A DNA stretch of 40,163 nt. It comes from a virus. Below are positions 5,393 through 39,805 of this stretch, piece by piece (within the stretch, counting starts at the first letter, position 1; the number at the start of each line of letters is the position of its first letter). The DNA lies in IMG/VR virus record IMGVR_UViG_3300000595_000002, positions 1 through 40,163 of that record, one strand, 5' to 3'. Both the position numbers and the translations under genes were made by a program. Below the pieces are notes generated by a model. It made no database searches, had not been told where the DNA came from, and was given only the letters and a program-made list of their open reading frames with translations.

Positions 5393-5809
5393 ATGCCTCA
5401 TATTTTAGCTGATCGACGGCAGTATTGTGACAATCTCATAGGCGTAAAGTCATGGGGAGAGTTGCATTACTTCTTTGGACAACAGATGCAATTGCAGTTT
5501 CTAGCTAACCCCTGTTACGACACGATACGTAATATTCGACGCTTCTTTGTTCAGACGGCCCATAGACAAGACTATTTTAAGAAGGTTAGACAGGCCTTGC
5601 GATGTCCTATGGACGACGTTCTTAATGAAGCGGACCTAGCATGGGAGATTTTCACGGCTGAGGTTGTCGTGCCTTACGAAGACGTCAAGGCTCTTGAGAA
5701 TGGTCACGCATACCAGAAGTCTCTAGAAGTTATTCGTAAGAAATTGGATGAAGTTATGGTGAAGAAACAGACAACAGGGCTCATTCTACCAAATGAGGTA
5801 AAGAAATGA
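5393..5809 (+). CDS. Hypothetical protein, 138 aa
   Basis: Strong Shine-Dalgarno (aaggag, 5382-5387) before the ATG. It is a helical, charged protein with no signal peptide, membrane segment or recognised motif. It sits between two nucleotide-metabolism genes and overlaps the dNMP kinase start by four bases, so it is probably translated with that kinase. Function not recognised. Confidence 0.55.
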   Translation: MPHILADRRQYCDNLIGVKSWGELHYFFGQQMQLQFLANPCYDTIRNIRRFFVQTAHRQDYFKKVRQALRCPMDDVLNEADLAWEIFTAEVVVPYEDVKALENGHAYQKSLEVIRKKLDEVMVKKQTTGLILPNEVKK

Positions 5810-6363
5810 TTTTAGTTGGGATTAGCGGCAAAAGACGCAGCGGAAAGGACTTACTGGCTTCCTTTCTTGTTAAGGAATATGGGTTTACACAGGTGTCATT
5901 AGCACTTCCGCTGAAGAATCTCTGTAAGACGATGTTTGGCCTTACGGAGGATCAAGTTAATGGGCCGGACAAAGAAAAGCCCACATGTCATATTGTCTCA
6001 CCACGTCACATTATGATTGAGACAGGGAAGTTCTTTAGGACTATCTATCCTGACGTGTGGGTTGACCAGCTATCAAACTACTTACTGAATGACTGTAAGC
6101 AACAGAAAAAGAAATATGTGATTAGCGATGTTCGGTTTTCTAATGAAGCCGACTGGGTTAAGGAAAACGGTGGATATTTAATCCGGCTTGAACGTGCTGT
6201 TGAGTTGACAGGTGAACCAATAGACGACCCTAGCGAGACACAGCTAGATCATTACGAGCATTTTGATTTGCGCGTTCCAGAATCTATGAATGTTGACGCT
6301 GCTGACATGGCTTATACAGCCGAAAGGGTTAATGAACTTATTCATGGACGAATCAGCGCTTAA
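5806..6363 (+). CDS. Deoxynucleoside monophosphate kinase
   Basis: 185 residues. P-loop GISGKRRSGKD at residues 5-15, then an ALPLK segment, PRHIMIETGKFFR and VISDVRFSNEA. This is the pattern of phage T4 gp1-like dNMP kinases, which phosphorylate dNMPs to dNDPs for replication. It lies just before the DNA polymerase and overlaps its start. The length is slightly below the T4 enzyme but complete at both ends. Confidence 0.8.
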   Translation: MILVGISGKRRSGKDLLASFLVKEYGFTQVSLALPLKNLCKTMFGLTEDQVNGPDKEKPTCHIVSPRHIMIETGKFFRTIYPDVWVDQLSNYLLNDCKQQKKKYVISDVRFSNEADWVKENGGYLIRLERAVELTGEPIDDPSETQLDHYEHFDLRVPESMNVDAADMAYTAERVNELIHGRISA

Positions 6364-8056
6364 CGAACAACCAGAAGACATTCTGGACTACTTAACGTGG
6401 GGAGTTAAAACGCGGGGGGCTACATTATTTATTAACCCCCGCGCCTACTTCCCTGCTGACGTAAAGACGGTTGTTATTGATGTTGAGACGGACGAGGCAG
6501 ATAACTTCGTCGGACTTGGTACAACGTGGAGCCACGACAGAGTTTATTACTACACGGAACTTAGCGAATACCTACTGAAGTCTCTGTCCGGTGTCAATCT
6601 TATTGGACATAACATTAAGTCTGATGCTCAATGGCTGCGTAAATGGGGCATTAATATAACACCGGAACAGCTTGTTTACGACACAATGCTGGCGTCGTAT
6701 GTGCAGGATAGCACAAGGAGAAGTCATGCTCTCAAGGACCTTAGCTCAGAATTATTTGGCATCAAAAGACCATCATATAAAGATATTGTCGGAAGAGGCA
6801 AGCAGAAAGTCACGCTTGATAAACATCCTATTGATCTTGTGGCTAACTACTGTGGCTGCGATGTCTTGGATACTTACAAATTATATGAATATTTTACCAA
6901 GGTTCTATCACTAGAGCAGAGGGCGTATTTGGAAGAAATAGAACTTCCAACAATGCGGGCATTGATGTTAATGGAAGAACGGGGAGTGAGTGTCAATGCT
7001 GAATACCTTAAAACTCTGGACAATAAGTTTACTTTGGAAGTTAAGCGATTGGTTGAAAGAGTCCGATCCATTTCTTGCACCATCGAAAATGTCAATTCTG
7101 ACAAACAGGTTGGCGACTTCTTGGTATCTAAAGGTTTTGCTCTCCAAAAAACAGCAACAGGAAAGAACAGCGTCAGCAATAAGTCTCTGGAGCCGTATCA
7201 AGGCGTTCCTTTCATCAAGACGTTAACGCGTTACTCGGAATTAGAAAAACTTCTCTCTACGTATACAGGGCCTTTATTGGAGGCGTCTCTTGGACAATCT
7301 GTTTATAGTTTACACGCGAGCTTCAATCAAGCTATTACTCACACTGGTCGCCTTAGTTCTAGTAATCCAAATCTTCAGAATATTCCTACGCGTACCGATA
7401 CCGGAGCTCTTGTTCGTCGGGCTTTCATTGCTCCTACTGGATGCATTCTTATAGACGCTGATTACAGTCAAATCGAACCCCGGCTATTTGCACACGAAAG
7501 CCAAGACCCTGAGCTTTTAAAAATCTTTAGAGAGGGGCATGACCTATATGACTATGTTGCTGCTGCTATCGGTTCTAGTCGATCTGTCGCTAAGACAGTC
7601 TGGCTCGCGCTAAGCTACAACGCCGGACCTTTCAAGATATCACAGACGGCAAAGATTCCCATAAGTCAGGCGTACACGTTTATTAACAAGATGAAACAGA
7701 AGTTTAGTACGGCTTTTAAATGGAAAGAAGCGACGATTCTAAAGGCCAGTTCCGATAAGTACGTTAACACATTGTACGGACGCAGAATTCCAATTCAGGA
7801 AGAAGGCCTAGCCCCGAATTACAAGATACAGGGGTCGGCTGCTGAAATCATGAAGAAAGCCATTATTGCAACGTCTGAGTTTAACCCCGTATTAACGGTG
7901 CACGATGAGCTTCTATTCCAAGTGAGACAGTCAGACAGGTTCCCATATGAGGTTGTGGATTCAATTAGAGGACGTATGGAAAACGCCGCAAAGCTGTCAG
8001 TCCCTCTTTTAGTAGAAGTTGGGACGGGGAGTAATTGGCAAGATGCAAAAAATTAA
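6332..8056 (+). CDS. DNA polymerase I family (PolA) with 3'-5' exonuclease
   Basis: About 574 residues, no 5' nuclease domain. The exonuclease motifs are VVIDVETDE (DxE), GHNIKSD and a CGCD segment, all retaining their acidic residues. Polymerase motif A is DADYSQIEPR, motif B begins RSVAKTVWLALSYNAG and motif C is TVHDE. In motif B the residue equivalent to E. coli Phe762 is Leu, and the following Gly is Ala. Motif A has Pro where Leu is usual. The start is uncertain: the frame opens at 6290, and ATG at 6332 (aaaggg four bases upstream) or 6344 are likelier because earlier codons lie deep in the kinase gene. Confidence 0.85.
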   Translation: MNLFMDESALNEQPEDILDYLTWGVKTRGATLFINPRAYFPADVKTVVIDVETDEADNFVGLGTTWSHDRVYYYTELSEYLLKSLSGVNLIGHNIKSDAQWLRKWGINITPEQLVYDTMLASYVQDSTRRSHALKDLSSELFGIKRPSYKDIVGRGKQKVTLDKHPIDLVANYCGCDVLDTYKLYEYFTKVLSLEQRAYLEEIELPTMRALMLMEERGVSVNAEYLKTLDNKFTLEVKRLVERVRSISCTIENVNSDKQVGDFLVSKGFALQKTATGKNSVSNKSLEPYQGVPFIKTLTRYSELEKLLSTYTGPLLEASLGQSVYSLHASFNQAITHTGRLSSSNPNLQNIPTRTDTGALVRRAFIAPTGCILIDADYSQIEPRLFAHESQDPELLKIFREGHDLYDYVAAAIGSSRSVAKTVWLALSYNAGPFKISQTAKIPISQAYTFINKMKQKFSTAFKWKEATILKASSDKYVNTLYGRRIPIQEEGLAPNYKIQGSAAEIMKKAIIATSEFNPVLTVHDELLFQVRQSDRFPYEVVDSIRGRMENAAKLSVPLLVEVGTGSNWQDAKN

Positions 8057-12073: not shown

Positions 12074-12681
12074 GCGAATTTATGCACGACCAGAAATGCG
12101 AATGGAACGGCGAAGAACCCTCTGCCTGTGACTGTAAAGTTCGCATTCTCGAATACCGCCTAGCTGAGACAGAGCGTGTGCTGAACTTATACAAACAGGG
12201 CTTTAATGAGCACCTATGTACGTCCTGTGAAAACTGTTGTGGAGACATAAAGGAAAGACTGTCCAAGGAGAACGACGCCCTAAAAGCCAAGCTCACAAAG
12301 GTGGTGGAGGGGTTGGAAGATTTGCATCGCATAACGAAATGCTATTGCAAACGCGGTCTTGAGCCTATTGGCAGTGCTGGATATTGTACGTGGTGTGAAG
12401 CCAAACAAACCCTCGCCGCTCCTGAGCGGAGCGAAGACTTGGTGGAGGAGAAGATCAAAGAGTGTGTCTTGGCTTTCACTCAGAATAAATATAACTACGG
12501 TGTAGATATCAATCGAAGACTCCGCGAACTGGTGGAGCTCGTTAAAGCTAATTCAAAACACAACATCTATAATATAGCAACGGAGATTATGGCTGTGTGT
12601 GGTGTAGATAAGGGTGACAGTGCTAGAGAGGCAATAAGGAATGCTGTTGTATCACGGATTAAACTACTGGGGAACTTGTGA
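12070..12681 (+). CDS. Cys-rich coiled-coil hypothetical protein, 203 aa
   Basis: Starts in an ATGA overlap. CDCK near residue 21, CTSCENCC near 53, then a coiled-coil stretch with heptad-like KERLSKENDALKAKLTKV, and more Cys pairs (CYCK, CTWC near 98-115). The C-terminal third is helical. It lies directly upstream of the integrase and overlaps its GTG start. It might be an accessory factor for integration or a DNA-binding protein (inference from position only). Confidence 0.45.
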   Translation: MSEFMHDQKCEWNGEEPSACDCKVRILEYRLAETERVLNLYKQGFNEHLCTSCENCCGDIKERLSKENDALKAKLTKVVEGLEDLHRITKCYCKRGLEPIGSAGYCTWCEAKQTLAAPERSEDLVEEKIKECVLAFTQNKYNYGVDINRRLRELVELVKANSKHNIYNIATEIMAVCGVDKGDSAREAIRNAVVSRIKLLGNL

Positions 12682-13694
12682 GAAGGGTACAGGGACTTTA
12701 CAACAATCACGGCTATGTACAGATACGTATATGGCCACAAGGAAAGGCCGTAAACCCTGCTCCTTACGTAGAGAAGGGATTTGGTTGTTGGTGCGATAAT
12801 CACAAGGCCATAGCTGCCAAGCGCCTGCGCATTCTACGTGATGAAATAGATTCAGGTAAGTTCATTAAGAATCAGCAAATGCGTGTTATTACATTTGGCG
12901 AAGCTTGGGACATTTTCTTTAACAAGCAATATGTCAAGACCAATCGAAGTCCCGGCACTGTTAGGTGTGCTGTAACATTCGGGGCCATTTTTAAATCATT
13001 GTGGGGTAATGTGCCACTACATGAAATGACCCCTAAGCATATAAAGGAAGATTTGATAGATGACTCTACCGTAGGGACGGGGACCCTTCGTAATCGTCTA
13101 TTTTCATTAGGACAGATGTTTACGTGTCTGGATAATTGGGTAAAGACTAAGGAGATAGATTCTATTAAGCTTCCTGAATTTAATCCAGTGTCCCCAATCG
13201 AAAAACCATCTTATAAATTCGTAGGAAGAAAGCATTTAGAGCTAGGAGAACTTCAAAGACTGAAGGAATGGTGTCTTAAAAACGATCCTGACCTTTGGGT
13301 AGCAGCTTACGCGGCTATGACAACGCTTTTACGCCATGGTGACTTAAACAAGGCCGCTGACAATGAGAGTCTTTATGGAGTTGCCTCGAAAACAGGTAAG
13401 GTGTTTCTACTTCCCGGTTCCATTACGAAGGGTATACACATAAAGGGATTCAGTTATAGATGGAGTAAGGCGCGTAAGGCCTGTGGCATAGAGTGGTTCC
13501 ACTGGCACTGGCTGAGGGCTCAGGGCGGTAAGATTATGCGGCTCTTGGGTGTTCCTGAGACCACAGTACAAGAGATTTACCAGCATTCCACCGTGAGGCA
13601 GACCAGAGAGTACACGGGGGACGCTGAATGGGCTGCTCCAGCCATAGAAAAAGTACGTAATTATCTTGACAATATTATGAATGCAAAGTCGTGA
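12678..13694 (+). CDS. int: Tyrosine-type site-specific recombinase (phage integrase)
   Basis: 338 residues, GTG start overlapping the upstream stop. Catalytic set: Arg219 in LLRHGDL, a Lys near 238-241, His277-x-x-Arg280 in HWHWLR, His303 and Tyr312 in REYTG. An N-terminal arm-binding region and a core-binding region (about 70-165) precede the catalytic domain. It would integrate the genome through attP, which is expected in the repeat-rich gap immediately downstream. It marks the phage as temperate or recently so. Confidence 0.88.
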   Translation: MRRVQGLYNNHGYVQIRIWPQGKAVNPAPYVEKGFGCWCDNHKAIAAKRLRILRDEIDSGKFIKNQQMRVITFGEAWDIFFNKQYVKTNRSPGTVRCAVTFGAIFKSLWGNVPLHEMTPKHIKEDLIDDSTVGTGTLRNRLFSLGQMFTCLDNWVKTKEIDSIKLPEFNPVSPIEKPSYKFVGRKHLELGELQRLKEWCLKNDPDLWVAAYAAMTTLLRHGDLNKAADNESLYGVASKTGKVFLLPGSITKGIHIKGFSYRWSKARKACGIEWFHWHWLRAQGGKIMRLLGVPETTVQEIYQHSTVRQTREYTGDAEWAAPAIEKVRNYLDNIMNAKS

Positions 13695-14007: not shown

Positions 14008-14406
14008 TTATTGTATTGTTATTGTAATCCCTTCCTTACGCCTTCTCCACATTTGAATAATCAGCTTTGCTAAGGCCCGACGGCTTTTATATACTGCGTC
14101 AGGGCCTTTTTCTTGCCCTACCAGAATGCAGCCTAACGTGTCTTTGGAGGAATTACCAGCATGAATAAGCACACCGTCAAAGCCGGGAACATTGAGAAGG
14201 CGGGGACAGATACGGGGACCATGGGGCCTAGAAAAATGAGGAGACGTCGTAAGCACAACCTCATACGTTCCGGCAGGAATGGCGACGTGTGGCTTCTGAC
14301 CAACAAGGGGATTTTCCAAGCTGAACAGCTCGCTGACACCATCTATAGACAACTCCCCCAGCGTGGAAGAGCTAGTAAAAGTCTGTCGTTCAAGTAGTAG
14401 CTTCAT
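14008..14406 (-). CDS. DUF5675-like lysis or peptidoglycan enzyme candidate
   Basis: 132 residues. Starts MKLLLER, followed by GELSIDG, SLENP, IPAGTYEV, and VLIHAGNSSKDTLGCILVG, the signature of DUF5675. The His and Cys in the last motif resemble the L,D-transpeptidase/carboxypeptidase active-site pattern (HxGN...GCI), and members of this group have been annotated as cell-wall enzymes in some phages (recalled). It is the last gene of the late operon, next to a holin-like protein, which fits lysis. Confidence 0.65.
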   Translation of the reverse strand: MKLLLERQTFTSSSTLGELSIDGVSELFSLENPLVGQKPHVAIPAGTYEVVLTTSPHFSRPHGPRICPRLLNVPGFDGVLIHAGNSSKDTLGCILVGQEKGPDAVYKSRRALAKLIIQMWRRRKEGITITIQ

Positions 14407-14618
14407 TTAATCTTAGGTGGTATTTTCCCGTGTATTTCTTCATAGCAGGAATTGAAATGTGTCATTGAGCCTTGGTATTCCTGAATGTCGAAGTTATGAC
14501 GACAGGGAGCATAGGCACACCTATCTATAGTCCAACGCTTCCCGTTCTTTTGATCGTAAAATGTTTCGTGTGTATGTCTAAGACAATAAGGGCACTGAAC
14601 ACCGCTGTAAGTACGCAT
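14403..14618 (-). CDS. Zinc-finger protein, 71 aa
   Basis: CPYC at residues 9-12 and a CAYAPCRH cluster near 34-40 form a zinc-site pattern reminiscent of the Ogr/Delta-type late activators, though too diverged to assign. It overlaps the DUF5675 gene by four bases. Role in lysis or late regulation unknown. Confidence 0.45.
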   Translation of the reverse strand: MRTYSGVQCPYCLRHTHETFYDQKNGKRWTIDRCAYAPCRHNFDIQEYQGSMTHFNSCYEEIHGKIPPKIK

Positions 14619-14623
14619 TAGAG

Positions 14624-14842
14624 CTACTCCCCATCGTTCCCACCTTTTTGTACCAATAACGCTTTTATATCGTGGACGTCTTGAGCTAGGCTTATAAGAG
14701 CCGTCTCAAGGCGTGTAAGTCGTGTGTTTGTAGACCATGCGAAGCTTACGGTGGACGTAATTACAAGCAACACAATGGCAGACAAGAAATGTGTGCTGAA
14801 ATCGGAGATTAGCTTTGTTTTAATCTGTTTGATTTTTTTCAT
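14624..14842 (-). CDS. Holin-like membrane protein, 72 aa
   Basis: Start placed at the internal ATG (14842), which forms an ATGA overlap with the preceding small gene; the frame extends to 14866. A basic N-terminus is followed by a membrane helix (FLSAIVLLVITSTVSFAW) and a coiled-coil-like LTRLETALISLAQDVHDI. One helix plus an amphipathic coil resembles XhlA-like or spanin-like lysis proteins. Its position before the cell-wall enzyme supports holin or spanin function (inference). Confidence 0.5.
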   Translation of the reverse strand: MKKIKQIKTKLISDFSTHFLSAIVLLVITSTVSFAWSTNTRLTRLETALISLAQDVHDIKALLVQKGGNDGE

Positions 14843-22373: not shown

Positions 22374-23501
22374 TTAAATCCTGAAACTAGGACCGCGATT
22401 TGACCACAACGGAGTGCCTACTTGGTGTTTCGTAATCGAGCGGTCTTCAGCTTTAGCAGAGTCCCAAGCAGCCTTTTGTATTTGGTACTGAGAGCCCTCC
22501 CGCATATCGGGACTAGCACCTTCTTCACGGTAAATGGCACCTTCAATGATTGCCGTAGGGTATCGATACGTCATCTCATTGACATCGTTTGAGTTAATAA
22601 GAATCGGGTACTTTCTCCAACCAGCAACAAGAACGCCCCAGCCTTGATTAGGGGAGGGGTCTAAACGAATATTCCGTCCAAACTGTCTCGTAGACGTGTA
22701 TGTAGCTCCAGCAGGAGCCACAAGAAGATTTTGATACAGAGTAATCGATGTGTCGCTCGTAACTTTATGCACGGTATACGGCGTAAGAACACCTGAAACT
22801 GCTCCCACAGTACTGGAGTCTCCCGTAATGGTAATGGTGTCCCCCGGTGTGACGTTGGCAAGCCAAGCTGTGCCGGACCCGGTTAGGACGTTTGAGTTAA
22901 TAGTGCCTGTAACTGTTCCAGTCGAATACGTCGTAGCCGAGAAATTGGAATTGAATATATAAGCAGCCGTGGGTATACCACGATTGACATTAGGTGGTTC
23001 AACATTCCAATAGATTGGCAAGGCCGACGTATAAATAGGAACTAAGACATGGCTGACGTCATATAGCTCAGATGGAAATAGCCAATCCATCTTCTTCAGC
23101 TCGAAGTTCTTTCCTGACGCTGACGTACCTTTGTAGGCTGGTTCTATCGTCATAGCCGACGTTGACGTACAGGCCACAACGCGATAGAACATATTAGGAG
23201 CGTCATCATAGAACCTAATGTACGCACCAACATACGTTGTGGTGTCTGGAAGAATAGCAGAAGCAAACGTAACCGTCTGCGAGCCGTTCGTAGCTGTCAC
23301 TGTCCCATTCGTCGTGCTGAATAAGTCCGTAACTTCAGGCAATAGATATTCACGTAGCCGGAACGACCACGGAAAACTGTCCCACTGTTCTTGGGCCGTT
23401 TCATTTATGAAGCGTTTAATACGTGTAGCGACAGTCGTATCATTTACGTTTTTATTTAAACGCGAGCAGACTGAAGTTACAAGATCGTTAAAAGTAGCCA
23501 T
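22374..23501 (-). CDS. Tail adaptor (tubular A-like) protein with Ig-like insert, 375 aa
   Basis: Begins with a helical segment (ATFNDLVTSVCSRLNKNVND) and INETAQEQWDSFPWSFR, like podovirus head-tail adaptor proteins (T7 gp11 / P22 gp4 class). A beta-rich Thr/Gly insert (residues about 175-280, GTVTGTINSNVLTGSGTAWL) looks like an Ig-like or BACON-type insertion. It ends with a helical segment (IIEGAIYREEGASPDMREG). It precedes the nozzle-like gene. Assignment is from synteny plus pattern. Confidence 0.6.
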   Translation of the reverse strand: MATFNDLVTSVCSRLNKNVNDTTVATRIKRFINETAQEQWDSFPWSFRLREYLLPEVTDLFSTTNGTVTATNGSQTVTFASAILPDTTTYVGAYIRFYDDAPNMFYRVVACTSTSAMTIEPAYKGTSASGKNFELKKMDWLFPSELYDVSHVLVPIYTSALPIYWNVEPPNVNRGIPTAAYIFNSNFSATTYSTGTVTGTINSNVLTGSGTAWLANVTPGDTITITGDSSTVGAVSGVLTPYTVHKVTSDTSITLYQNLLVAPAGATYTSTRQFGRNIRLDPSPNQGWGVLVAGWRKYPILINSNDVNEMTYRYPTAIIEGAIYREEGASPDMREGSQYQIQKAAWDSAKAEDRSITKHQVGTPLWSNRGPSFRI

Positions 23502-23519: not shown

Positions 23520-23912
23520 TTAATTTACTTTGTAAAGAATCGTCACACCGCCGCTGTTTCCAGTGGTCGTATAAGACAGGCCGTTGTAAAGCCTAACGTT
23601 GTAATGAAACTCATTCGCGGAGTTCAACGTTACACTTGAAATCATTGTGTTAGGAAGACAGGAGAACGTGCTATCGTAGATTCCAATAATTCCACCTGTA
23701 GTCACGCTGGCAACTATAATTCCTCGGAAATCGCTATTGGCACCTGTGGACGAGACCTGAGCCGAAAATCCGTTTCCTGAAGTTTTATTAATCCACTTAC
23801 ATGTGTCATTTGTGGCAGTAAATGAAGACTGATTTATTTCCCTTGTTTCATCAAACGCAAAGGCCATCGAGGACATAGCCAACGACAACCCAAAGATAAG
23901 TAACTTTTTCAT
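23520..23912 (-). CDS. Sec-exported beta-rich protein, 130 aa
   Basis: Clear N-terminal signal peptide (MKKLLIFGLSLAMSSMAFAF, cleavage likely after the second AFA). The mature part is beta-rich with two cysteines, one in NDTCKWI and one in FSCLPN, able to form a disulfide in the periplasm. A fold-level match to the protein at 25384 is visible: a GIIV/GVIV strand, a 'F-x-V-x-L-x-NGL' strand and a C-terminal 'ILYK/R' strand. It overlaps the previous gene by four bases within the tail operon. No function recognised. Confidence 0.6.
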   Translation of the reverse strand: MKKLLIFGLSLAMSSMAFAFDETREINQSSFTATNDTCKWINKTSGNGFSAQVSSTGANSDFRGIIVASVTTGGIIGIYDSTFSCLPNTMISSVTLNSANEFHYNVRLYNGLSYTTTGNSGGVTILYKVN

Positions 23913-24124
23913 TTTGTTTTTTCCTTAAAGATTGGGAAATAATAAGGCTTTCCCTCGATTTTTTGTTCCGCAACCATCGCTAGAACGAACTTATGACCAT
24001 CTGCTTCAAACGCACCCTGTGACGTGACTTTTGTGTAAAGAATGTTAACTACGAACAACAATAATGAAACTGCAACGGCTAAGAACGGACGTTTACGGAA
24101 TTCGTCTTCAAGTTGTTTAATCAT
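23909..24124 (-). CDS. Small membrane protein, 71 aa
   Basis: A basic N-terminus, then a membrane helix (PFLAVAVSLLLFVVNILY, residues about 13-30), then a polar Lys/Glu-rich tail. It is flanked by four-base overlaps with the Cys-rich gene and the exported protein. It may be the membrane partner of the exported protein at 23520 (position only). Confidence 0.5.
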   Translation of the reverse strand: MIKQLEDEFRKRPFLAVAVSLLLFVVNILYTKVTSQGAFEADGHKFVLAMVAEQKIEGKPYYFPIFKEKTK

Positions 24125-24360
24125 ATGTAGAGGCGTCCCGTTTTACGTTTGACTTGACCGTCCGGTTGTGCTTCTCGGGAGAGAATGTCTTTGTAATGCG
24201 CTGAAGAAAGCTCCTGACCACCTTTAAGCCGTATCATGGCTTTGAATGTATTCGGTTTTAGATTATCGGGGCTATTTATGTAGGCCCTAAAGCAAGGCTC
24301 ACATCGCTTTAAGAAATCTAAATCGTCAGACTCATTCTGACACACATCACACTTTTCCAT
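24121..24360 (-). CDS. Cys-rich small protein, 79 aa
   Basis: Start at internal ATG 24360 with ggagaaag upstream; the frame extends to 24411, but that part crosses a GC hairpin. CDVCQNES and CEPC form two Cys pairs, then a Lys-rich C-terminus. Stop overlaps the next start. No family recognised. Confidence 0.45.
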   Translation of the reverse strand: MEKCDVCQNESDDLDFLKRCEPCFRAYINSPDNLKPNTFKAMIRLKGGQELSSAHYKDILSREAQPDGQVKRKTGRLYI

Positions 24361-24411
24361 TGCTTTCTCCGTTAAACTTTGTGTTCCCTTGCGGGGGAGC
24401 CCGTCCCGCAT

Positions 24412-24499
24412 CTCGATATACGTCCTGTGTTCTTTTAACGTCTATTCAGGCTTAAACTAAAGGGAGCAGCAAAGAACAGTTAGTTTTTAGATTTGCGAC
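24412..24499 (-). other. Hairpins after the capsid gene
   Basis: A short spacer containing an inverted repeat AAACTAA / TTAGTTT separated by 19 bases and the edge of a GCGGG/CCCGC hairpin (near 24390-24409). It could be a partial terminator or mRNA-stability element boosting capsid expression over the genes beyond. Weak evidence. Confidence 0.3.
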
Positions 24500-25366
24500 T
24501 TATTTGCCGTTGATGGCAACACCGAACGTAGTACGATAATTCAGCACACCATAGATACAGGTGGCAACGTACAGGTCTCCGGTGTAGTCCGGTCGGCGCA
24601 TCTTTTCAACACCAATCTGTTTCTGAATAGCAAGCAGGTAGGCATCTTTGTGGAACATCTGATTGACTTCGTGAGCTGAAGAAGTCGGGATGTTGTTGGT
24701 CCAATAGATCGTCACACCGAGACGTTCGCCAACGATACCCGTTTTAATGGGTTCATCAGGGACATACCGAGTGTTGATAAACTGTTCCGTCTTCAACCAC
24801 GCAGCTTTGGTCTTAGGACCAATGACAGCGTAGCGTTCAGTGTCGGGGGCATTCGCCTGATCGAGCGCGAGTGCAGCCGCAACCCAGTCATCCAACGTCG
24901 GGTCTTGACCGAGCGTACCAACGGCAGAGTTCGTATTGCCACTCTGCAACGCCAGAACGTCAGTGTCGATCTGCAACGCAAGACCGTAGACAGCCTTCTC
25001 TTTCATCAAATCCGCAAACATATACTTGCTCTGCACGGTCAACATGTCGTCAACCAAGAAAGCTTCGTAATACCGTTTGTTGAGATTCAGCGTCAGGGAA
25101 GTCTGAGTGATGGTATCAATCTGAATCTGTGACACAGTGGACACAGAGCGAGACTGAGCCGAAGACATATTCGCCAATTGAGGAATGTTAACGGTGTCTC
25201 CGCCATCTTTAACGAATTCATCCATGCGTTTAACCAAACGCGCAGCGACGAGTTGATTTTCAACCGCCAACTGTACTTCTTTGCTCCACAGAGTCGGGTT
25301 AAAGACTTCTGCTGTTTGACCACTACCGCCTGTATAGGCGGCGGAACCAATAGCTCCAAAGCTCAT
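24500..25366 (-). CDS. Major capsid protein, HK97-fold type
   Basis: 288 residues. It begins with a Gly/Ser-rich N-arm, then VFNPTLWSKEVQLAVENQLVA, a beta-rich body with DTVNIPQLANM, and YYEAFLVDDM / DLYVATCIYGVLNYR near the C-terminus, the pattern of short HK97-fold capsid proteins of podoviruses. It lies downstream of the portal and a scaffold-like gene. No capsid protease was found, consistent with scaffold-dependent assembly without a protease. Confidence 0.75.
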   Translation of the reverse strand: MSFGAIGSAAYTGGSGQTAEVFNPTLWSKEVQLAVENQLVAARLVKRMDEFVKDGGDTVNIPQLANMSSAQSRSVSTVSQIQIDTITQTSLTLNLNKRYYEAFLVDDMLTVQSKYMFADLMKEKAVYGLALQIDTDVLALQSGNTNSAVGTLGQDPTLDDWVAAALALDQANAPDTERYAVIGPKTKAAWLKTEQFINTRYVPDEPIKTGIVGERLGVTIYWTNNIPTSSAHEVNQMFHKDAYLLAIQKQIGVEKMRRPDYTGDLYVATCIYGVLNYRTTFGVAINGK

Positions 25367-25383
25367 GTTAGTTTACCGTCCTA

Positions 25384-25824
25384 TTAATTTTGATCGCTTT
25401 GCAGGCGATATAGAATCTCCCAGTGCTCGTTAGAGCCGGGAGCTGCACTCATAGTCGCGTTAAGCCCGTTTACAAACTTAATTGAAACAGGGAACGTGAG
25501 AAGTGTGCTTGCAACACTATTCGCCGCCGTGTGAACCGACAACACGGAAGACGAGTGATTCGCCGTAGCAGTGTCCCGAAGCGTCACAAAAAGACTGGAC
25601 GCACCGGCGCTGCTCGACACAATAACCCCAAAAATAACGCCCTTGCCTGTAGCGCAAAGAACATCTTGCGTACCGGAAGAGATACTCATATCACACACTG
25701 AGGCACCGGCCCAACGAGGGTCGATGACCTGAGCGTTCTGCTTATCAGTGGGTACTGGAATAGCCGAATAAGAGGCTGAAACCATACCCAAGACAAGCCC
25801 GAGAGAAAGGATAATCCTTCTCAT
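25384..25824 (-). CDS. Sec-exported beta-rich protein, paralogue of 23520
   Basis: 146 residues from ATG 25824, which has ggaggc eight bases upstream. The frame opens at 25881, but those codons belong to the scaffold gene. Signal peptide MRRIILSLGLVLGMVSASYS, then a beta-rich domain with two cysteines (SVCDMS, DVLCATG) and a strand order like the exported protein at 23520. It sits between scaffold and capsid genes, where a decoration or head-fibre protein is usual. Yet it carries an export signal, which a virion protein assembled in the cytoplasm should not need. Confidence 0.6.
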   Translation of the reverse strand: MRRIILSLGLVLGMVSASYSAIPVPTDKQNAQVIDPRWAGASVCDMSISSGTQDVLCATGKGVIFGVIVSSSAGASSLFVTLRDTATANHSSSVLSVHTAANSVASTLLTFPVSIKFVNGLNATMSAAPGSNEHWEILYRLQSDQN

Positions 25825-25840: not shown

Positions 25841-26500
25841 TTAGCCAACGATTTTGACTTCACCTTTGGCGATAAGTTCACGGACTTTTGCGTATTCTGC
25901 TAAAGACATTTTTTCAATCTCTTTGTTCGTCAACTGCTTTGCTGAACTGGCGGGAGCGGCAGAAGTGGAAGTAGAGATAGAAGCGTTAGAACCAATCGCC
26001 TTGAGCCTTTCAGCTTCAGTGGCGGCTTTGGCCTCTGCTTCTGCCTTCTTTTCCTGCTGTAGTAACTGCCATGCTAATTTTGCTGTCTTATCCGGCGTAG
26101 CACCTGAAATGCCCCGACGTTTGGCGAAGTCAACGACTTCTTTCCATCCGTCAGTATTCTCAACTTCGTCGGCGTCAACATTGAGCTTACTCGCCACGAA
26201 AGATTTAGCTTTTTCGTAGGAGACGGCTGCCATAATTAACGGTGTGGCGTGTTCCACAACTTTCTTCTGCAACAGAACATCAACAGGGTCGGCCACCTGA
26301 TTACCCGCAGGAGTCGGGGGATTTTGCCTAGCTGCTTCTAGTTGCTGTCTTTTTTCTCTCTCACTTAGGAGGTCTGCTTTAATGCCTTTAACTGCACGTT
26401 CAAGTTCCGCGATTTGCTGCCTTGAAGCTTCAAGCTCTTTATTCGCGTCAATCTGACCCGTTGACGATTGGGTTTGAGCCTGACTATTTACATCACTCAT
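25841..26500 (-). CDS. Scaffold-like protein, 219 aa
   Basis: Charged and helical with a coiled-coil near residues 24-58 (ASRQQIAELERAVKGIKADL), a Lys/Glu/Ala-rich helix near 145-165 and an Ala/Ser linker. No Cys. This composition, between the portal-side genes and the capsid gene, is the usual profile of a phage scaffold. A C-terminal basic segment (ELIAKGEVKIVG) may bind capsid subunits. Confidence 0.65.
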   Translation of the reverse strand: MSDVNSQAQTQSSTGQIDANKELEASRQQIAELERAVKGIKADLLSEREKRQQLEAARQNPPTPAGNQVADPVDVLLQKKVVEHATPLIMAAVSYEKAKSFVASKLNVDADEVENTDGWKEVVDFAKRRGISGATPDKTAKLAWQLLQQEKKAEAEAKAATEAERLKAIGSNASISTSTSAAPASSAKQLTNKEIEKMSLAEYAKVRELIAKGEVKIVG

Positions 26501-26515
26501 TGATAAGCATCCTTT

Positions 26516-26872
26516 TTAACGGGACGATGTTCCCGAATTCATCGCGTTTCGTTTCTGCATTTCTTCTTGCTTCTTGCGAGCTAGTTCGACCACGCGAAGC
26601 AGGTCTAACGTCGCTCTGAGTCCACCACGACTTTGATTAACTTCGTCGGTCGTAGCTTTCTCGTTTAAAATTGTCTGTAAGTAGTTGAAGGCCTGCGCCC
26701 ACGCTTCTTGCTCGTAAGATTTATACGCGGGGGTATTTGAGTACTCAATGACACGTAGGACGTCAGCTTTAACAGCGTCAGGGTGATTGGGTAGGGGCTT
26801 CATGCCAAACTTCAACATGTCCTTACCTTCGGTTGAACTGAATAACTTCTGTAAGCTAACTAGCCAATTCAT
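26516..26872 (-). CDS. Hypothetical protein, 118 aa
   Basis: Helical and basic at the C-terminus (KKQEEMQKRNAMN). The ATG overlaps the portal stop by one base. It lies between portal and scaffold, the place of small head-assembly factors. No motif recognised. Confidence 0.5.
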   Translation of the reverse strand: MNWLVSLQKLFSSTEGKDMLKFGMKPLPNHPDAVKADVLRVIEYSNTPAYKSYEQEAWAQAFNYLQTILNEKATTDEVNQSRGGLRATLDLLRVVELARKKQEEMQKRNAMNSGTSSR

Positions 26873-29082
26873 TAGTGTTGGCCTCCCAACATTGCGCCTT
26901 GAACAGCATTGTTAGGCTGAGCAGCCATAGATGGACCAGTTTCTCCAGCCCTCATTGTGTTCATTGTCTGAGCAGGATTACGAGACTGTGTGAGTCCGGG
27001 GAGTCCCGGCTGCTGCTGAAGATTAGGGCCGGGGTCAAACACTCCTGACTTATTAAGCTGGAACTTCTCTGTCGCAGCCTTCAAGTGCTTCATCTTCATA
27101 ATCATGAGCTGCATGGCCTTCTTCTGTTTGTCGTCCCAATCCTGATACTCTTCTGTTTCCATAAACTCGGCGTAACGTTCAAGGTGCTCATCGAAGTCAA
27201 CACCGGGCATAGGGAGATAGTCACGTCCGTTTTCCAGCATCTCAATAACTTCACTCGGGCTAAGGGCTTCAGCTTGAGGCGGCTTAGGAATGGTCAGGTT
27301 AATTCCCATACCACGCAAAGTGTTGGTGAAGAGCTCATATGTCGTGGCGGGATTCATGGCAATGATGGGGTCCTGTCGGAACATCTTGAAGGCCATAAGC
27401 CATGTCTGCTGCATCATCTGCTGATCGAAGATGTTCTGAATCTCAAGCTTGAACTTCGTTTGAACGGAGAAGTCTTCACGGGACATCTTCTTGAATAACG
27501 GAACGCCCTTACCAATACCGACAACATAAAACTCTTTCGTCTCAGGGGCGCACTGACAATTCAGGTCCCACATGTGATTCAGAAGTTTCTCAATGGACAG
27601 CACTAAGCGGTTCAACGGATTGGAGAGACGAATAGACGCTCTCTGATTCATCGAAATAGATTCAGTGGCAGTCTGCTCACCGGACGACGGAAGTCCCTGA
27701 ATGTTATCCGTGATTCCTAGAATGCGTTCGACATACTGAAGGAGTAGGCCTTCTTCCTGAAAGTAGGACTGACGAACGGCGGGCGTTGGTGCAAACTGCA
27801 CTTCGCGTGGATCATCAACGGGGTAGAAATGTCCCGGCGTGATCTGAACGGCTTCAGGATTGAAACGGCCTCCGGCACGGTAGAAGCCGAACACTGTATT
27901 TTCCCAAGCTCCGGCATTGACACGGGCGTTGTGAATAGCTTCCCATTCGTCACACAGAGGGCGAATGGCTTTGTGAATAGATTCTCCTAATCCACGGCTA
28001 TCAATAGGACGTGTTTTAATTTCAACAATGCGGCAGGGGGTCAGAGCAACACGAATAACAACACCTGTCTTAACTTCAAAGACAACCGTAATCTGCTCGA
28101 GCTTCTTGTCGTCATCAATGTCCTTCCAGAGATAAGCCTGAGCTAATTCAACAACCTGCTGGTCTAGATACCAGCCCAGCGTAAAACCGTCATACTGCTT
28201 GCGGGCTTGCTCAAGGGCACTCGTGTCGTCAATGAGCTTGTTAACCATGATTCCACGAAGCTCTTCAACTTGGGATGGAATATAGAAGGAGTCCCCGTCT
28301 TCACCTTCTTCAGCGAGACGTTTAACTTCAGACATTGGGGACTTCTTATATTTGAATACGACGTCAGTCTCTACGGCCTTATCAAAATCAGGGATAAACG
28401 GAGAGCGGTAAATATGCTCAGGGGAAATAGACTCAATCTTAATACCGTCAAATACAACTTTCTTTTCCTTCTTCGTCTTATTCCGTTTAACCTTCTTCGT
28501 CTGACCAGTCGGGTTCCCCTGATCGTCCAGAATCGGTTGTTCCTCTTCTTCTTGGTATTTAACGGTGTCATATTTAATTTGACGCTCGTAGCGCGGTTCA
28601 ATGTAGGCTGTACCGAACTTCTTGTCTTTTAGGTCGGCGTCATCCAGAACAGAATAGAAATCTGCTTCGTAAGCGAGTTGGTAGGACAAATAGTCGGCGG
28701 CTTTATCCGCCTTCGATTTAAAATCTTGCGTAAGATAGTGAGGCTTAACCTTCGCCATATTCCCTTGACCGAATATGGAGTACATGTGGTTAGCATGAAG
28801 AGAGTCGGCGGCAATACGAGTAAAGATACAACGGAGATTGGCTGCACCTGCGTACGGAACGGGCTTATCCGGTGGTTCGAGATAATACGCCTTTAACGCC
28901 TCTGCCTTCTCATCTTCCCACTGAGCGCGGTCAGTGTATCCACGCATCTTCGTGAATCTATCAGAGAGCTCCTTACCAATCTCCGTAAGTTTCTCTTTGG
29001 TTAGACTGAGGTTGTCGTCGTCATTAACTTCGGACGGCTCAATTTCTTGCTTCAGTAGTTCGTATTTGTTTAGGTCAGCCAT
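26872..29082 (-). CDS. Portal protein, 736 aa
   Basis: Large protein with an acidic N-terminus, a LKAYYLEPPDKPVPYAGAAN segment and a Gln/Pro/Gly-rich C-terminus, directly after the large terminase. 'NLRCIFTRIAADSLHANH' and 'IGVP...' type segments match podovirus portal proteins in general, although no single motif is diagnostic. The length is in the range of P22-like and related podovirus portals (about 700). Placement and size are the main support. Confidence 0.7.
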   Translation of the reverse strand: MADLNKYELLKQEIEPSEVNDDDNLSLTKEKLTEIGKELSDRFTKMRGYTDRAQWEDEKAEALKAYYLEPPDKPVPYAGAANLRCIFTRIAADSLHANHMYSIFGQGNMAKVKPHYLTQDFKSKADKAADYLSYQLAYEADFYSVLDDADLKDKKFGTAYIEPRYERQIKYDTVKYQEEEEQPILDDQGNPTGQTKKVKRNKTKKEKKVVFDGIKIESISPEHIYRSPFIPDFDKAVETDVVFKYKKSPMSEVKRLAEEGEDGDSFYIPSQVEELRGIMVNKLIDDTSALEQARKQYDGFTLGWYLDQQVVELAQAYLWKDIDDDKKLEQITVVFEVKTGVVIRVALTPCRIVEIKTRPIDSRGLGESIHKAIRPLCDEWEAIHNARVNAGAWENTVFGFYRAGGRFNPEAVQITPGHFYPVDDPREVQFAPTPAVRQSYFQEEGLLLQYVERILGITDNIQGLPSSGEQTATESISMNQRASIRLSNPLNRLVLSIEKLLNHMWDLNCQCAPETKEFYVVGIGKGVPLFKKMSREDFSVQTKFKLEIQNIFDQQMMQQTWLMAFKMFRQDPIIAMNPATTYELFTNTLRGMGINLTIPKPPQAEALSPSEVIEMLENGRDYLPMPGVDFDEHLERYAEFMETEEYQDWDDKQKKAMQLMIMKMKHLKAATEKFQLNKSGVFDPGPNLQQQPGLPGLTQSRNPAQTMNTMRAGETGPSMAAQPNNAVQGAMLGGQH

Positions 29083-36015: not shown

Positions 36016-36119
36016 CTGACCAAGAATTACTAGAGAAAGAGTTTATAGACCTATGTGTTGCTATTAAGCGATTCAAGAAGTTAGCTCGTAAAATATTAGG
36101 TGAATCGGAGGGTATATGA
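36012..36119 (+). CDS. Small hypothetical peptide, 35 aa
   Basis: ATGA overlaps at both ends. Acidic N-terminal half and basic Lys/Arg-rich C-terminal half (AIKRFKKLARKILG). It lies immediately before the lipoprotein gene and may help couple its translation. Confidence 0.4.
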   Translation: MTDQELLEKEFIDLCVAIKRFKKLARKILGESEGI

Positions 36120-36730
36120 AACGTCTCTATGTCCTAGCCTTACTGCCTTTACTCTCAGGATGTAATGAATGGCGGAAGCTTACAGGCAGCAACGACACCA
36201 TCATTAATCAGCCTGTGACTGTCACGCCGGGCGCAGGGGACTTACAGCACAAGACATTTGTTACTCATGATGGACTCACTATCTATTCTGATGACAGAGA
36301 CTACCACGAGACACCTGTTAAAATTCAATTTACGCCGCTGAGTAGTACCTCGAATATAACGGTACGCGCAAGCGGAACCGTCACAATCCATGCCTTTGAA
36401 CCCGAGAGCCCAGCAGACATTACGCTGTACCGAGACGGATTAGACTTGTTGGACGACAACACCACCACAAGACCTTATCGCCTATTGTCGGGAGCCTCAG
36501 ACTGTAGCTTTGAGCCCACAAGATGCGTTGTTGAGACTCAAGCGCCTGTGTCCCTAGAGTTTACCGAGAAGTCGCCCGGAGCTGGTAGGACTGTGACCTA
36601 TGCCGTGAGAGTACGTACCGGAGACGCGCCGCCTTTACCTAACCTTCCGCCGCGCTATTCTGTCCGGTGGGGAGTGTCAGGGGATACGGGTCTCTACTCA
36701 GAGATTAGTATTGAAGAATGGACGGAGTAA
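36116..36730 (+). CDS. Phage-encoded lipoprotein, 204 aa
   Basis: N-terminus MKRLYVLALLPLLSGCNEW has a lipobox (LLSGC, Cys16), so it should be lipidated. Residue +2 is Asn, which in Gram-negatives allows outer-membrane sorting (Asp there would hold it in the inner membrane). The mature part is beta-rich with Cys pairs (ASDCSFEPTRC) and Thr/Gly-rich strands, like a small Ig-like domain. It is expressed from the early side. Phage lipoproteins can block superinfection or alter the lysogen surface (family-level knowledge); here this is inference. Confidence 0.65.
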   Translation: MKRLYVLALLPLLSGCNEWRKLTGSNDTIINQPVTVTPGAGDLQHKTFVTHDGLTIYSDDRDYHETPVKIQFTPLSSTSNITVRASGTVTIHAFEPESPADITLYRDGLDLLDDNTTTRPYRLLSGASDCSFEPTRCVVETQAPVSLEFTEKSPGAGRTVTYAVRVRTGDAPPLPNLPPRYSVRWGVSGDTGLYSEISIEEWTE

Positions 36731-39178: not shown

Positions 39179-39291
39179 TGGCAATGGTAAACGCGAAACA
39201 GATAAAGCGACTGATCGCAGAGTTGCGTAAACAATTAGGACGTGAACCGACGTTTGAAGAATTTCGGAAGGCATTACATGGAAAACAATAA
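39178..39291 (+). CDS. Small hypothetical peptide, 37 aa
   Basis: The ATG shares a base with the previous TAA. Basic and helical (AKQIKRLIAELRKQLGREP). It overlaps the next gene start by 14 bases. No family recognised. Confidence 0.4.
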   Translation: MAMVNAKQIKRLIAELRKQLGREPTFEEFRKALHGKQ

Positions 39292-39805
39292 AAAGTACTA
39301 CATGGGTGTGCTAGTTGTGGTGTTTGTGTTGGGTCTTTGCTTACGGGCTTGCTTTCAACGGACTCCGCCGACAAATCATCCAACAATGTCAACGGACTTT
39401 CCATCTACTGACACCGTAAGAGTCGCTGTCAAAGATAACGTGCTAGAAGTACAAACGCCAAACTCAACGGAATATAAATACGTTCCCGAAGAGGGTCAGG
39501 CTGTCATTGATATTAAACATGATCCAGCGCGTCCTGTCATTACAGTCACGAATAAGGGATTTACAAGGCAGTTTGGTGGAAGTGTGTTATTTGCTGACAA
39601 GCTACGTATTGGTATCGATTGCGAAGGATTCTACTGGAATCGGTTTGGAGTACTCGGCGGCCTTGGACTTGCTTCTAATCCGATTGTGGTTGGGTACGTG
39701 GGTATTTCCTATCAACTGGATCAATTGAAGCTGAACAATACAAGTCTTTGGCTAGGTATGACGACAAAGAAGGATATTGCTGTTGGCCTTCGTGTGGCCT
39801 TCTAA
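39278..39805 (+). CDS. Membrane-anchored beta-rich protein, 175 aa
   Basis: Start at ATG 39278 (a longer frame from 39242 lies in the previous gene). One N-terminal membrane helix (GVLVVVFVLGLCLRAC) follows a short polar start. The rest is beta-rich, ending IAVGLRVAF with a terminal Phe, as in outer-membrane beta-barrels, though too short for a full barrel. It may span the periplasm. It is the gene before the repeat gene that crosses the contig ends. Confidence 0.5.
   Translation: MENNKKYYMGVLVVVFVLGLCLRACFQRTPPTNHPTMSTDFPSTDTVRVAVKDNVLEVQTPNSTEYKYVPEEGQAVIDIKHDPARPVITVTNKGFTRQFGGSVLFADKLRIGIDCEGFYWNRFGVLGGLGLASNPIVVGYVGISYQLDQLKLNNTSLWLGMTTKKDIAVGLRVAF

Follow-up and report, generated by a model that had tools for sequence, protein, structure and literature searches.

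Exported proteins of phages usually serve lysis or the exclusion of other phages and are not encoded in the core of the capsid block. As a rule, superinfection-exclusion genes are either neighbours of receptor-binding genes or prophage-expressed, rather than being placed beside the gene for the major capsid protein (MCP). In lambda, a small decoration protein is encoded next to the MCP.

The present analysis concerns two small genes, A and B, which have predicted signal peptides (SPs) and are located around the MCP gene of an uncultured phage. The closest described proteins are Llp of phage T5 and Cor of T1 and phi80, which are small phage proteins exported to the periplasm, as is predicted for A and B (PMC9586334). 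Llp, a lipoprotein of the periplasm, contains a disulfide and blocks the FhuA receptor; it is encoded beside a structural gene (pb5), again like A and B (PMC9586334). Llp and Cor carry an intramolecular disulfide (PMC9586334); A and B proteins have either no or two cysteines, which are not conserved. The likeness has limits. Llp and Cor are lipobox lipoproteins encoded near a receptor-binding gene, while A and B have a predicted type I SP without a lipobox and are encoded near the MCP. Unlike Llp and Cor, A and B have no detectable sequence likeness to any library family.

Decoration proteins such as lambda gpD and the Ig-like protein of N4 (PMC11768535) are similar to A and B in size, but they are made and used in the cytoplasm, have no SP and do not match A or B in sequence. 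According to a survey, SPs are absent from phage DGR target proteins (PMC6199706), and no report of an SP-bearing decoration protein was found in the literature searched, which did not extend to most subscription journals. In the T1 u-spanin family, the periplasmic part is predicted to be beta-rich (PMC11447400). Spanins differ from A and B, which have no lipobox, coiled coil or C-terminal membrane span; the phage studied here also has a separate lysis candidate. In Mesorhizobium phage Lo5R7ANS, the MCP of which is related to the one studied here, apparently envelope-directed proteins are encoded just upstream of the MCP.

Organization of the capsid operon

The sequence analysed, referred to as the window, is the whole IMG/VR virus record IMGVR_UViG_3300000595_000002 (40,163 bases). 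The presence of a terminase gene, an SU10-type portal and adaptor, a phrog_267 capsid protein and an integrase-like gene (12678–13694, plus strand; phrog_1, E = 5.7e-22) indicates a phage that is probably short-tailed and, in view of the integrase-like gene, may be temperate. A candidate lysis cassette on the minus strand (14008–14842) pairs a weakly holin-like membrane protein with a DUF5675 protein (E = 4.9e-28).

The capsid block is encoded on the minus strand in the order portal, a small gene, probable scaffold, B, MCP, CxxC protein, membrane protein, A and adaptor. The portal protein (26872–29082; Pfam SU10_portal, E = 1.5e-18) was the query for locating related phages. The probable scaffolding protein (219 residues, 25841–26500) has a charged, coiled-coil-like sequence and gave no family match in the library search; it is located immediately upstream of gene B (146 residues, 25384–25824, ATG at 25824). 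The MCP (288 residues, 24500–25366; phrog_267, E = 3.3e-39) follows, the gaps between scaffold and B and between B and MCP being 16–17 bases. Its relatives in the phage collection, as found by tblastn, include T7-like and P22-type coat proteins, all below 60% identity. Downstream are a small CxxC...CxxC protein (24121–24411), a single-span membrane protein (71 residues, 23909–24124), recognized from its sequence and its orthologues, and gene A (130 residues, 23520–23912). The head–tail adaptor (22374–23501; Pfam SU10_adaptor, E = 1.3e-7) forms the downstream limit of the cassette. Both open reading frames are thus present where the original prediction had placed them and, as it had claimed, they flank the capsid gene, which could be identified by its phrog_267 match: B adjoins it directly upstream, while two small genes separate it from A. 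A promoter scan yielded only candidates below shuffle level. Terminator-like sites were more frequent than in shuffled sequences (9 versus 4.2), but those on the minus strand are inside genes and were left unused.

Comparison of A and B with PHROGs, Pfam, NCBIfam and PDB sequences revealed nothing beyond noise, known decoration families included, and PADLOC had no model matching A, B, the membrane protein or the CxxC protein. At the sequence level, A and B represent two orphan families.

Related phages

Two related phages, both uncultured, were identified. In L001 (IMGVR_UViG_3300006052_000027), portal and MCP are 83% and 89% identical to those of the window. In L013 (IMGVR_UViG_3300020057_000076), which was located with a trimmed portal-core profile (A4), the values are 41% and 29–30%. 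The comparison set therefore consists of three independent genomes with six A/B proteins. Orthologues of A are encoded at 7385–7738 in L001 and 13839–14174 in L013, those of B at 5545–5982 and 12267–12695, respectively, and the SP is kept in both phages for both genes. The gene order scaffold–B–MCP–membrane protein–A–adaptor is conserved even at an MCP identity of 29–30%. The scaffold candidate has a 32% identical counterpart in L013, and the CxxC protein is 77% identical in L001 and absent from L013. Residues ~64–158 and ~191–268 of the window's adaptor match tail-fibre-type PHROGs such as phrog_1980, as does the adaptor of L013.

The mature domains of A and B show 33–36% identity to those of L013. 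Between the window and L001, dN is 0.45 for mature A and 0.28 for mature B, but 0.09 for the MCP, so that A and B evolve much faster than the MCP.

Scans of IMG/VR with A, B and a joint A/B profile revealed only the contig of L001, and neither of two species-genome scans, run with profiles of the portal and of B, gave a match. Those more distant matches to the portal profile that were read (L014, L016, L018, L019) have other capsid modules. A tblastn search of the phage collection with queries from all three phages found nothing beyond a weak match in Acetobacter phage phiAP1 (E = 0.2), which is located in the tail region, has no SP and was judged to be due to chance.

The MCP neighbourhoods of 13 other phages, found via MCP, portal or terminase, were also scored, 68 genes in total. 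Only four genes are SP- or TM-like. Two of these, in Lo5R7ANS, resemble lysis genes and have an annotated amidase as neighbour; of the two in LUZ100, one is lipoprotein-like and the other unclear. These assignments are our reading, the records giving hypothetical proteins. Small SP proteins similar to A or B are absent from the 68. In four phages related by capsid, portal or terminase (L007, L038, L040, L004), the MCP gene is followed by a small, beta-looking protein which has no SP and no detectable similarity to A or B. The stretch of Lo5R7ANS immediately preceding its MCP gene (L031, 352–1537) contains a short Rz1-like ORF and two TM/SP-like genes in addition to the amidase gene. The orphan families A and B, whose export signals are strongly kept, thus occupy an unusual position for exported proteins, and no counterpart is known.

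Signal peptides and cysteines

SPs were called by a home-made rule based on three features: charge, a hydrophobic core of 10 residues, and small amino acids at positions −1 and −3. As this rule is also positive on spurious ORFs, and does not separate a cleaved SP from a signal anchor, weight was put on conservation in the relatives. Both A and B pass the rule with a predicted type I SP at the N-terminus. In A, it comprises residues 1–19 (MKKLLIFGLSLAMSSMAFA; encoded at 23856–23912, minus strand), with the predicted cleavage motif A-F-A before F, leaving a mature domain of 111 residues. In B, it comprises residues 1–20 or 21 (MRRIILSLGLVLGMVSASYS, then A; encoded at 25762–25824, minus strand), followed by a mature domain of about 125 residues. 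Ribosome-binding sites are good for both genes, and the Shine–Dalgarno sequence GGAGG just upstream of the B start is kept in all three phages.

Each of the six orthologues begins with a charged n-region and a hydrophobic core, followed by a cleavage motif like [AS]-[FY]-[ASC]. The motifs for A are AFA|F in the window, STA|Y or AYC|Y in L001 and SYA|L in L013; those for B are SYS|A, SYA|A and AFA|A, respectively. The hydrophobic cores are short (~10–14 residues). The SP of B retains its character even though it is only 21% identical between the window and L013. Between the window and L001, dN of the SP is 0.22 in A, versus 0.45 for the mature part, and 0.32 in B, versus 0.28; these values are from small counts (19–21 codons). 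A lipobox was sought in all six sequences, and a coiled coil and a C-terminal membrane span by inspection of A and B, and none was found.

The SP is kept in six of six orthologues while the mature domains diverge, which indicates selection, and we conclude from this comparison that the predicted SPs of A and B are selected for and are not vestigial. The original prediction had recognized a clear SP on both genes and considered export. Both points gain support from the features conserved in L001 and L013, across deep divergence. The same conservation, and the SP of A being more conserved than the mature part, speak against its suggestion that the signal may be vestigial.

Two cysteines had also been listed as a trait shared by A and B. 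In the window, they are at positions 38 and 85 of A and 44 and 57 of B, which are unrelated between the two proteins. The pair in B of L013 (45/58) aligns with that of the window; A of L001 has cysteines at 19 and 95, while B of L001 and A of L013 have none, both having been lost together. A disulfide as a feature common to the A/B family was therefore rejected, as was the trait itself. Every one of the six proteins has either zero or two cysteines. Such even counts, and the paired gain or loss in B, fit a disulfide formed in an oxidising compartment, six sequences being too few for proof.

Relationship between A and B

The original prediction had described A and B as beta-rich paralogues with matching strands. 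The short motifs on which this was based (GIIV/GVIV, NGL and ILYK/R) are indeed present in the sequences. Profile–profile comparison of A with B (hhalign, SPs removed) gave E values of 8.6e-4 and 4.7e-3 for the two directions. Of two sets of 500 column shuffles, two and one shuffles, respectively, reached the A/B score (about 3 in 1000); shuffle maxima near 133, implausible for shuffled columns and probably a program artefact, were kept and counted against paralogy. Twelve controls, all of them small structural or tail proteins, scored below the A/B match. Among single-sequence pairs, however, just two of nine are above chance, namely A of the window with B of L001 (6.0 SD) and A with B of L001 (3.9 SD), the remaining seven being at or near chance. 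Paralogy of A and B is thus likely but weakly supported. AlphaFold models computed from the three-sequence alignments (pLDDT 40 for A and 38 for B) were too poor to judge whether the folds are beta-rich, shared by A and B or like those of a known decoration family. A Foldseek search with the low-confidence B model gave no match at E <= 0.001, a result which the model quality makes uninformative.

Possible functions of A and B

The gene for the small membrane protein, which the original prediction had passed over, is closely coupled to A. Its stop codon overlaps the A start in the window (ATGA) and likewise in L001 (7188–7385); in L013 (13634–13837), it ends one base before A. The protein has a single hydrophobic span after positive residues, so that its topology is probably N-in/C-out, although ambiguous in the L013 orthologue. 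It is 19–45% identical across the three phages and has no convincing family match. The overlapping or abutting arrangement in three of three phages suggests that A may work with the small membrane protein at the inner membrane.

We favour an envelope role: A and B would be exported and become active there in late infection, A with a membrane partner. We consider the chances of this to be about even. On this view, late expression of the capsid operon would yield both proteins, Sec would export them and signal peptidase I would remove their SPs. Their site of action would then be the periplasm or the outer envelope, and A may bind the small inner-membrane protein. Most likely, they would serve to alter the envelope of the host cell ahead of lysis. 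The phage might benefit by denying a second phage its receptor or the entry of its DNA or, alternatively, by keeping its progeny off debris, in analogy to the periplasmic Llp of T5. The interpretation is based on the SP in six of six orthologues, the slower evolution of the SP in A, the conserved gene order, the coupled membrane-protein gene, the pattern of zero or two cysteines, and the rarity of SP- or TM-like genes near the MCP elsewhere (4 of 68). Action at the cell surface late in infection, through superinfection exclusion, release or a decoy, had been proposed in the original prediction. The conserved and closely coupled membrane-protein gene fits such late action at the envelope, while release is least favoured given the separate lysis cassette. 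Several points count against the envelope: deep conservation within the capsid block, where relatives carry SP-less beta-looking proteins, fits a virion protein too, exclusion genes are normally located elsewhere than beside the MCP, the topology of the membrane protein is ambiguous in L013, and the independent genomes number only three. The arrangement points to one of two things: a core function in the envelope late in infection, or a virion component maturing outside the cytoplasm.

The latter is the main alternative. A and B may be decoration or head-fibre proteins which are exported, fold in the periplasm, some with a disulfide, and coat the released virions at lysis. The position of A and B on both sides of the MCP in three of three phages agrees with this, as do the SP-less proteins after the MCP in the four relatives and an expression level that would equal that of the MCP. 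We nevertheless regard it as possible but unlikely, since those SP-less proteins have no detectable homology to A and B, A and B outpace the MCP in evolution between the window and L001, A is tied to a membrane-protein gene, and the literature searched provided no precedent. That a tailed phage exports decoration proteins via Sec for periplasmic folding, and dresses its virions only at cell lysis, appears slightly more doubtful still. Position beside the MCP is insufficient for annotating a gene as decoration.

Alternatively, the N-termini could remain uncleaved, so that A and B would be anchored in the inner membrane with the small membrane protein, tethering head assembly or serving another anchored role. 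Three hydrophobic N-termini within one capsid block, and an SP rule that is blind to the difference, agree with such anchors. A good signal-peptidase motif in all six proteins and cores shorter than a typical membrane span make them improbable.

A role as accessory lysis proteins, spanin-like and placed by the MCP as in Lo5R7ANS, would be in line with the placement, in that phage, of an annotated amidase gene and TM/Rz-like genes directly before the MCP, with the similarly placed lipoprotein-like ORF of LUZ100, and with the predicted beta-rich T1 u-spanin family. It is quite improbable, as A and B have neither lipobox nor C-terminal membrane span and the candidate lysis cassette is located elsewhere. 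Finally, A and B could be ordinary structural proteins whose SP-like starts are vestigial or due to chance, weak hydrophobic N-termini being frequent in spurious ORFs. This is a very improbable explanation for SPs kept in six of six orthologues despite 21% SP identity in B, at start sites conserved with their Shine–Dalgarno sequences.

Two plus-strand proteins without a family match are encoded elsewhere in the window: one of 204 residues with a lipobox-like start (LLSGC; 36116–36730), and one of 187 residues with an N-terminal membrane segment (39242–39805).
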